Positions 9,019 through 11,072 of a stretch of DNA of 24,942 bases are shown one piece after another. The notes beneath the pieces were generated by a model, which saw only the letters and a program-made list of their open reading frames with translations, had not been told where the DNA came from and made no database searches. Each line of letters starts with the position of its first letter. Position 1 is the stretch's first letter. The stretch spans positions 1 to 24,942 of IMG/VR virus record IMGVR_UViG_3300022540_000114; one strand, written 5' to 3'. The stretch is from a virus. Both the position numbers and the translations under genes were made by a program.

Positions 9019-9753
9019 ATGGAAGAAGAATCACTATTACCAGAAGCAGACGAAGCAGCAACCGAGACAGCAGCAGAAACAGCAGAAACAACAGCAGAAG
9101 TAACTCCGTGGTATGTATCAGAGGGAATAGAAGGGACAGGCGATAAACCTGACTTTTTGCTGGATAAATACACGACTATGGCAGACCAAGCCAAAGCATA
9201 TCCTGACTTAGCCTCTAAATTTGGTGGCTTTACAGGCGCTCCCGACGATTATGAGATGAGTATGCCTGATGGAATAGATGGTGAAATAGCTTCTGATGAC
9301 CCTTTAGTGGGTGAATTTCAGCAATGGGCTAAAGATAACAACCTAAACCAGGATGGTTTTACCAACATCTTGCATATGTTCATTAAGAATGAGTACGAAA
9401 CAACCGGCACCAACCGAGAATCAGAGCTTAATGCTATCGGTGACAACGCTAAAGAAAGACTACAGAATGTAAGCGACTTTGCTCAAGCTAATCTGAGTGA
9501 GGACGGCTTTGAAGGTTTAAAGGATATGCTCACCACAGCGTCAGGCATGAAAGCGGTTGAAGAATTAATTAGTTTAACACGCTCATTAGGCGTACCAGAC
9601 AACAGCGAAACAGTATCAGGCTTGACCCATAGTGACCTTAAAGAGCGTATGAGCGATCCAAGACAGCAATCCGACCCTGATTTCCGCAAAGAAACAAGCA
9701 GATTGTACGGAAAACTGTTTGGTAACGAGCCAAGTCAAAATATTGTAGGTTGA
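9019..9753 (+). CDS. capsid scaffolding protein
   Basis: 244 aa, acidic, placed right before the major capsid gene. The N-terminus is a Glu/Ala/Thr-rich low-complexity stretch (about residues 1-30). Then comes the DKYTTMADQAKAYPDLASKFGGFTGAPDDYEM segment type seen in podovirus scaffolds. A long helical middle follows, and a C-terminal helix (about 215-240) would contact the capsid protein. Ribosome binding site AGGAG at 9009-9013. The scaffold directs procapsid assembly and leaves before DNA packaging. The capsid promoter overlaps its stop codon. Confidence 0.8.
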   Translation: MEEESLLPEADEAATETAAETAETTAEVTPWYVSEGIEGTGDKPDFLLDKYTTMADQAKAYPDLASKFGGFTGAPDDYEMSMPDGIDGEIASDDPLVGEFQQWAKDNNLNQDGFTNILHMFIKNEYETTGTNRESELNAIGDNAKERLQNVSDFAQANLSEDGFEGLKDMLTTASGMKAVEELISLTRSLGVPDNSETVSGLTHSDLKERMSDPRQQSDPDFRKETSRLYGKLFGNEPSQNIVG

Positions 9754-9777
9754 CAATATATATAAGTACGTTATGAT
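9750..9777 (+). promoter_or_regulatory. strong sigma70-type promoter for the capsid unit
   Basis: -35 TTGACA (9750-9755, 6 of 6), 16-nt spacer, -10 TATGAT (9772-9777, 5 of 6), in one of the few non-coding stretches of the structural region. The -35 overlaps the scaffold TGA. Expected transcription start is near 9784. It would raise capsid messenger above scaffold and portal, which fits the hundreds of capsid copies per particle. Confidence 0.72.
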
Positions 9778-9783
9778 TTACTC

Positions 9784-9883
9784 ACAGACACCCTTTATGG
9801 CCTGTATTAAACAGAACATCTAGGCCCCAGCCTAAGCTGAGATACCCTAAAAACATATTATTTTAATTTTTTAGGAGTATCTT
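9784..9883 (+). promoter_or_regulatory. structured 5' leader of the capsid mRNA with ribosome-site hairpin
   Basis: About 100 nt without a gene between promoter and capsid start. By eye it can form three stems. The first is GGCCT (9799-9803) with AGGCC (9822-9826), with TGT/ACA (9803-9805 with 9811-9813) as a competing or nested pair. The second is CAGC-CTAA-GCTG (9828-9839). The third is an A/T-rich stem CCTAAAAA (9846-9853) with TTTTTAGG (9868-9875) around a 14-nt loop. The last stem includes the first bases of the AGGAG (9873-9877) that lies 6 nt before the ATG, so it could limit ribosome access or protect the messenger's 5' part. No known riboswitch is recognised. Confidence 0.5.
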
Positions 9884-10741
9884 ATGAGCAAGAATCTAAG
9901 TGCTGCTGCTTCCACCGAGTTTGACGATATGGTTAAACACGAGTACCAGACTATGGGTGCTACTAACGGTGGTATAGTAAATGCAGTCACACAACGCAGC
10001 AACGTAGTAGGCGATACCTACAAATTCCGCGCTATGGGTAAAGGACTGGCTAATCAGAAAGCAAGCCAAGCCGATGTTACACCTATGGACATCTCTCACA
10101 GCCTTATCACCGCAACATTAGGTAACTGGAACGCTCCAGAATATACCGATATTTTTGACGCGGCTGAGGTCAACTTTGACGAAAAACAAGAGTTAGCGCA
10201 TACAATTGCTGGCGCTTTACATCGTCGTCAAGAACAAATCATCATTGATGCAATGGACGATGCTACACCTGGCGCGACTATCGCAACCAGTGTCGGTGGT
10301 GCTGCTACAAATATGAACATCGAAAAAGTTATTGCTGCTTCTAAAGAGCTTAACGATGCTGGTGTTCCAATCGACCAAGACCGTCATATTGCGACTTCTG
10401 CTCAGGGCTTGCAGTTCATGCTCTTAGAAACCCAAGTTGGTTCAGCCGATTATAATAGTGTTCAGTCATTAATGACCGGAACATTGGATTATTGGATGGG
10501 CTTTCATTGGCATATCATTGAATCTCGTGATGAGGGTGGCCTAACAGTTGCTGCTGGCGATGTGCGTCAAAACTATGCTTGGCATAAGTCAGCGGTAGGC
10601 CTTGCAACAGGTTTAGATATACGCACTGACGTAAACTGGGTTCCACAAAAGACTTCATGGTTATGCAATGGCATGATGAAGTGTGGTGCAGCCATTCGTG
10701 ACACGTCTGGTTTAATTCTAATCAACGCTGACGAAACATAA
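9884..10741 (+). CDS. major capsid protein (HK97-fold, podovirus type)
   Basis: 285 aa. The start (MSKNLSAAASTEFDDMVKHEYQ), an RGxx-like segment (NVVGDTYKFRAMGKGLANQK), the WNAPEYTDIFDAAEVNFDEKQELA stretch, and the alternating AGALHRRQEQIIIDAMDDA spine helix fit the phage capsid family used by BPP-1-like and related podoviruses. Length is at the short end for HK97-type proteins without a pro-domain. It is preceded by scaffold, promoter and AGGAG, and followed by a decoration-like gene. It should be the most abundant virion protein. Confidence 0.9.
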   Translation: MSKNLSAAASTEFDDMVKHEYQTMGATNGGIVNAVTQRSNVVGDTYKFRAMGKGLANQKASQADVTPMDISHSLITATLGNWNAPEYTDIFDAAEVNFDEKQELAHTIAGALHRRQEQIIIDAMDDATPGATIATSVGGAATNMNIEKVIAASKELNDAGVPIDQDRHIATSAQGLQFMLLETQVGSADYNSVQSLMTGTLDYWMGFHWHIIESRDEGGLTVAAGDVRQNYAWHKSAVGLATGLDIRTDVNWVPQKTSWLCNGMMKCGAAIRDTSGLILINADET

Positions 10742-10752
10742 GGAGAACTAAA

Positions 10753-11025
10753 ATGGCTTTTAATGCAGATAATCTAATCCCTATGTCAGCTTCGGCTAAC
10801 AGTTCGGCCCCCAAGCATTGGTCTTACGGTACTACAGACACAAAGGCAACTGCTGTTGCGTCTGGATACTTTGACGATGCTGTTATCATGGGCTTGAAAG
10901 CTCAAGATATTATATGGTGTGTGTCGGCTACTGGCGGCACAGAGACTTTCGATAACATTTTTGTTGACGCGATTAGCGCCGCTGGTGTTGTTACTGTTCT
11001 TTCAACCGTTCAGATATTAGCTTAA
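10753..11025 (+). CDS. small capsid-associated (decoration-like) protein
   Basis: 90 aa, likely all-beta: starts MAFNADNLIPMSASANSSAP, then WSYGTTDTKATAVASGYFDDA, then a hydrophobic beta region to the end. Proteins of this shape (Y-x-T-x-D ... GYF) follow the capsid gene in many podoviruses and are thought to decorate or stabilise the head. Ribosome binding site AAGGAGAA at 10740-10747. It shares the capsid promoter and lies before the terminator, so it is probably made in amounts close to the capsid protein. Confidence 0.65.
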   Translation: MAFNADNLIPMSASANSSAPKHWSYGTTDTKATAVASGYFDDAVIMGLKAQDIIWCVSATGGTETFDNIFVDAISAAGVVTVLSTVQILA

Positions 11026-11030
11026 TTAGT

Positions 11031-11058
11031 AAGGGGCTTTAATCGGCCCCTTCTTTTT
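11031..11058 (+). terminator. rho-independent terminator closing the capsid unit
   Basis: Stem AAGGGGC (11031-11037) with GCCCCTT (11046-11052), an 8-nt loop, then C and TTTTT (11054-11058). It lies five bases after the decoration-gene stop and before the next gene's AGG-containing leader. Together with the promoter at 9750 it frames a two-gene unit. Read-through must occur, or another promoter must exist, to express the tail genes. Confidence 0.85.
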
Positions 11059-11072
11059 ATTAAGGCAGGACT

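Follow-up and report, generated by a model that had tools for sequence, protein, structure and literature searches.

A conserved twin-loop RNA ahead of the major capsid gene in uncultured podoviruses and its possible role as a translational switch

The DNA analysed in this work, called the window, is one IMG/VR record, IMGVR_UViG_3300022540_000114, taken at its full length of 24,942 bases. A PHROG search identified large terminase, portal, major capsid protein and tail protein genes in the usual order and, judged from sequence, the record is a fragment of an uncultured podovirus. A YqaJ-type recombinase gene (24-443) is cut by the record start, which means that the early genes are missing. No RNA polymerase gene was found among the open reading frames (ORFs) scanned, these being a part of the ORFs of a record that is itself a fragment. 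The features in and around the spacer between the scaffold and capsid genes are listed below.

9019-9753, + strand: scaffold (capsid assembly) gene (ORF; weak match to phrog_458 'protease', E=1.7e-5; synteny with phage MEP301)
9750-9777, + strand: sigma70-type promoter TTGACA-16-TATGAT (11/12 consensus matches; predicted transcription start ~9784)
9784-9805, + strand: module A hairpin (covariation of columns 22-43 and 28-40 to 31-37; model R1)
9821-9849, + strand: module B hairpin (covariation of columns 62-83, 63-82 and 64-81; model R1)
9836-9889, + strand: hairpin predicted to mask the Shine-Dalgarno sequence (SD), alternative to module B, GCUGAGAUACCCUAAAAA paired with UUUUUUAGG(A)GUAUCUU..AGC (folding; own versus permuted complementarity)
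9873-9877, + strand: SD AGGAG of the capsid gene (sequence)
9884-10741, + strand: major capsid gene, 285 aa (phrog_3437 major head protein, E=3e-56)
10753-11025, + strand: 90-aa ORF between capsid gene and terminator (phrog_18004, unknown function, E=1.7e-16)
11031-11062, + strand: intrinsic terminator, end of the capsid transcription unit (sequence)

The scaffold gene holds the position of the 'capsid assembly protein' gene of MEP301, and its stop codon (9751-9753) is followed by a scaffold-capsid spacer of 130 nt. A preliminary description of this DNA had noted a near-consensus promoter over the scaffold stop, and such a promoter does overlap the stop codon. It scores highest among the 34 sites present in 20 kb; promoter-like sites are in total about as numerous as chance predicts, so that only the strength and the place of this one are notable. 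Among 33 divergent leaders, 26 have a promoter-like site 5' of the element, with a mean score of 9.9 bits versus 5.4 bits in shuffles. In the close relatives L002-L005 and L007 a similar terminator stands about 1145 nt past the capsid start, nearly the distance seen in the window. Taken together, promoter, leader, capsid gene, 90-aa ORF and terminator look like a separate transcription unit, in which the 90-aa ORF is a candidate decoration protein. In the related locus L155 a terminator with a CU-rich lead-in lies directly past the scaffold stop and parts scaffold from the capsid promoter; upstream, at this terminator, positions 2760-2818 match the SorX / betaproteobacterial toxic sRNA with E=4e-5, under the gathering score.

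Relatives were collected by an IMG/VR search with the capsid protein (401 found, 80 kept) and by further scans with three other capsids. From these, 163 distinct leaders were extracted, the main groups being the window's group (89) and the MEP301-type group (65), whose cultured member is Methylophilales phage MEP301. A non-coding spacer is retained at the scaffold-capsid junction of the relatives, with a median of roughly 160-340 nt depending on the group.

Covariation was tested in an R-scape-like manner on structure-blind alignments, using the G statistic with average product correction, against a null in which the substitutions of each branch of a FastTree tree were re-placed on random columns. 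The preliminary description had called for such a test against free drift of the spacer, and covarying pairs were found in both main groups. In the MEP301-type group five pairs reached E<0.05 and two further ones E<0.06, in nested helices, and the top nine pairs agree with nested helices save for one alternative pair. In the window's group the top pair, 62-83 (E=0.032), belongs to the outer stem of module B, and next in rank are pairs from hairpin A and from the inner stem of B (E 0.07-1.2); module B columns 63-82 are paired in 87 of 89 leaders and 64-81 in all 89. Few pairs are individually significant, yet the leading ones sit where a single structure predicts them. In alignment A3 pairing holds in 94.7% of the cells and double changes occur in 7 pairs, which is above slid controls and was equalled by 0 of 500 shuffles, while alignment A5 has 93.9% paired and both-side changes in 13 of 16 pairs.

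The structure consists of two hairpins. In module A an outer stem, ACAG (9784-9787) with CUGU (9802-9805), is separated from the inner pairs C9792-G9800 and C9793-G9799 by an internal loop in which ACAC (9788-9791) faces C9801. In module B the outer stem UAGG (9821-9824) with CCUA (9846-9849) is followed by an internal loop, C9825 facing AUAC (9842-9845), and by an inner stem of C9826-G9841 and CAGC/GCUG. The strands of hairpin A read 5' G-AYAC-C and 3' G-C-C, and module B is made of the same two strands in reversed order; A and B therefore share one 4-by-1 internal loop. The window leader thus has both hairpins with AYAC opposite C, in mirror order, A before B. At the same place MEP301-type leaders mostly carry G-CNNAC-C opposite G-C-C. 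The twin-loop motif is enriched about 15-20-fold in capsid leaders versus the remainder of the loci. In a few leaders both loops depart alike (AYAA in L028, L184 and L216; AACAA in L283), and this anecdotal parallel departure would fit one shared partner.

Several further hairpins of this kind were seen. In L041 (4843-4952), and also in L042, L172 and L173, an extra module-B-like hairpin, CUCGAG-C-CCGC..GCGG-ACAC-CUUGAG, lies 5' of the usual pair, and the loop strands occur more than two times in these four capsid leaders. Single module-B-like hairpins stand upstream of 2492 in L086 (Vibrio phage CKB-S2; GUCG-C-CC-GCAA-GG-AUAA-CGAC) and upstream of 2501 in L089 (Manatee Spring podovirus; GG-C-CC-GCAA-GG-ACAA-CC); lying before more distant capsid genes, they suggest that the loop may be still more widely distributed. 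The loop bears some likeness to the theophylline aptamer, and two strings resemble the 11-nt tetraloop receptor; neither resemblance was retained, as they are not conserved.

Covariance model R1 was constructed from 16 leaders of other clades without any window-type sequence. In the window it found 9782-9855 with 21.2 bits and E=0.00049 (filters off), the runner-up in the 25 kb having E=1.2. Across 122 sources (837 kb) all R1 matches, among those listed, lie directly 5' of capsid genes. In this 837-kb search R1 did not reach the MEP301-type or Vibrio/Pelagibacter leaders, and a search of phage records with the leader nucleotide sequences returned no homologue beyond MEP301 itself; because neither search joins the two main groups, the argument for a common origin of their twin loops is drawn only from the shared loop and gene position. 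Rfam 15 gave no match on the window, nor, even with E-values relaxed, on the leaders from 14 related loci, and no description of the RNA was found in the literature searched (a 2017 survey of 224 candidate RNAs lies outside that search). Three DNA-pattern candidates for window-type leaders, L305-L307, proved to be unrelated chance matches. We class the capsid-leader RNA as a new cis-acting leader RNA family and consider it nearly certain that this is a real element, conserved and folded.

Energy-based folding of 9784-9895, a check proposed earlier, gave a strong fold: -28.7 kcal/mol versus -15.1 +/- 2.9 for shuffles (z = -4.7; 0 of 200 shuffles equal). The last hairpin, 9836-9889, reaches z = -5.3 by itself and pairs the complete AGGAG plus its flanks, A9876 alone being bulged. 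The three stems of the preliminary description are recovered by RNAfold, the last of them pairing the entire SD instead of covering only the start of the ribosome site. RNAfold stems 1 (9797-9819) and 2 (9821-9834) are non-conserved; comparison places modules A and B there. By nearest-neighbour energies the masked state of the window leader is about 18 kcal/mol lower than the A+B fold, and with A+B enforced the SD is still not predicted to be fully free.

Complementarity to the SD was assessed in 33 representatives below 75% identity as the duplex energy of a leader segment with its own SD region versus swapped pairs. Exactly two segments are SD-specific in the window's group. One is hairpin A, at columns 24-46, where z reaches -5.8; the other is the B 3' strand, at columns 76-98, where z reaches -5.9. 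Own-SD complementarity of the linker, and of the inner hairpin of B, was weak or absent in the same representatives. In window-type leaders GCUGAGAUACCCUAAAAA, which forms the 3' strand of module B, can pair with an upstream partner, UAGGCCCCAGC, or with a downstream partner, UUUUUUAGGAG.., which comprises the SD and its flank. The hpB arm and the downstream flank change in step (GAGAUAC/GUAUCUU, GGAUAC/GUAUCC, GCGAG/CUCGC, GCUG/CAGC), and across nine window-type leaders the fit of the hpB 3' arm to its own post-SD flank exceeds that to permuted flanks (p=0.0001), shared ancestry being removed only in part by such permutation tests. Since both anti-SD segments also build the twin-loop fold, this fold and SD masking exclude each other. 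An anti-SD strand common to two mutually exclusive helices is the architecture of an SD switch, and the computation shows such a strand in window-type leaders. We judge it likely that fold and SD do compete in the window's group, where the computational support for this competition is good.

Predicted masking is clear in window-type and L065-type leaders. As a family-wide property it was rejected, since in the l42, l66 and MEP301 groups the mean predicted accessibility is close to the level of shuffled leaders; MEP301-type leaders have no SD-specific segment, and one weak segment pairs 5' of the SD. In L064, L065, L230, L235 and L276 an extra long-range helix is suggested between the 3' side of A and the 5' side of the B loop strand, which would form a pseudoknot. 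A compensatory change in this helix is seen between L291 (CCGUAUUC/GAAUACGG) and L294 (CCGAAUUC/GAAUUCGG).

The conserved fold, its twin loops, the complementarity to the SD and the exclusivity of SD pairing with module B or A are computational results, and the leader probably governs the timing or the amount of capsid protein synthesis. Their best explanation, to which we give somewhat more than even credence, is a translational switch, a conserved twin-loop RNA controlling capsid synthesis. The mRNA from the gene's own promoter would begin with the cis-acting hairpins A and B, with identical AYAC-opposite-C loops between G-C and C-G pairs. In window-type leaders the default state would be masked, GCUGAGAUACCCUAAAAA pairing with UUUUUUAGGAG.. 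and burying the SD, together with the start codon in some relatives, whereas pairing of GCUGAGAUACCCUAAAAA with UAGGCCCCAGC would complete module B and free the SD. In related clades the anti-SD role would fall to hairpin A, through its 5' arm and loop. A ligand would stabilise the twin-loop fold and so turn capsid translation ON; we infer that it may be a late phage protein, capsid or scaffold, or another signal of the infection stage, and two loops would fit a dimer. As the masked state of the window is favoured by about 18 kcal/mol, unmasking would need a ligand, tertiary contacts or noncanonical loops, or co-transcriptional folding. The ligand-driven ON switch is our preferred, unproven mechanism. 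In some clades kissing of the hairpin A loop with the SD, the hairpin staying intact, could reverse the sign of the switch.

The opposite sign would result from an autogenous repressor, in which capsid or scaffold protein bound to the twin loops keeps the mRNA closed and a build-up of free protein stops synthesis (OFF). The position of the element solely before capsid genes, among the matches listed, is what one would expect of it, a duplicate loop suits a dimeric protein, and the A loop is able to pair with the SD in several clades (L018, L051, L055, L214). Window-type masking, however, needs no helper, and the twin-loop fold would unmask the SD, so that we regard this reading as rather unlikely. 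A small molecule bound by the twin loops, that is a metabolite riboswitch, would account for aptamer-like conserved loops joined to an expression platform of mutually exclusive helices; it is nevertheless very improbable, as the element lies, among the matches listed, only before capsid genes and never before metabolic genes in the loci searched, and has no Rfam relative.

Other readings dispense with a ligand. A passive leader of the T7 gene 10 kind, whose 5' stem-loop stabilises the mRNA while the translation rate stays fixed and nothing switches, agrees with the demand for an abundant and stable capsid mRNA and, in window-type leaders, with a predicted start on the base that opens helix A (8-9 nt from the -10 end to the loop-strand G). 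It leaves the near-invariant twin internal loops and the two SD-specific strands unexplained, and we consider it improbable. An RNA thermometer, with an SD hairpin melting on warming, could draw on the A/U-rich composition of that hairpin, but predicted masking in the window leader is the same from 4 to 42 C, which makes it scarcely credible. The temperature switch by melting is accordingly the part of the earlier interpretation that we abandon; its other parts, an own promoter, a leader under selection and a likely control of capsid translation, are retained, and to them are added the twin internal loops, the two exclusive anti-SD pairings and the capsid-unit terminator, which it had omitted. 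Finally, inverted repeats occur in DNA too, and the element might act as an operator or be a terminator relic instead of an RNA. G-U pairs barely outnumber A-C mismatches in the helices of the window's group (59 vs 48), as this would allow, but MEP301-type helices favour G-U over A-C by 40 to 13, and pairing with the SD is specific; a DNA-level element is thus highly unlikely.

Among known systems, gene 10 of the podovirus T7, encoding the major capsid protein, has its own promoter and a structured 5' leader. The window resembles it in both respects and in its T7-type tail genes; its promoter is of the sigma70 type, and T7 uses its own RNA polymerase. To our knowledge the T7 leader has neither a strand that competes for the SD nor twin internal loops. 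The cultured relative MEP301 lacks an RNA polymerase gene (PMC8024684). With translational riboswitches and other SD-sequestering leaders the element has in common exclusive helices that share an anti-SD strand; unlike them, it has no aptamer match in Rfam 15 and the controlled gene encodes a virion protein. Phage-borne glutamine riboswitches are known from Melnitz, Mosig and a cyanophage (PMC9004378). These are likewise cis-acting RNAs of marine phages, but they have a tmRNA context and a known ligand class, while the capsid leader has no Rfam match. The MS2 coat hairpin, the T4 gene 32 leader and the autoregulation of P22 scaffold are autogenous translational operators. Like them, the present element precedes a phage protein gene with probable control at its own ribosome site; in place of one operator at the start it has twin internal-loop hairpins upstream, to which a protein may bind.

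The large late output of capsid relative to scaffold in tailed phages has mostly been put down to gene order and to the strength of promoters. In the present case a single folded RNA, found neither in Rfam 15 nor in the literature searched, precedes the capsid gene across a broad range of related virus contigs and, in the window's group, stands in a switch-like relation to the ribosome site. We put forward, tentatively and with less than even confidence, that it may represent a widespread, undescribed class of virus-encoded RNA switches, in which two identical internal-loop receptors would detect capsid or scaffold protein in its free form, or some other signal of the state of assembly, and would expose or hide the ribosome site of the capsid gene. 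In uncultured podoviruses the production of capsid protein would in this way be tied to assembly. An RNA of about 100 nt, together with the cultured relative Methylophilales phage MEP301, offers a direct handle on capsid control at the RNA level.
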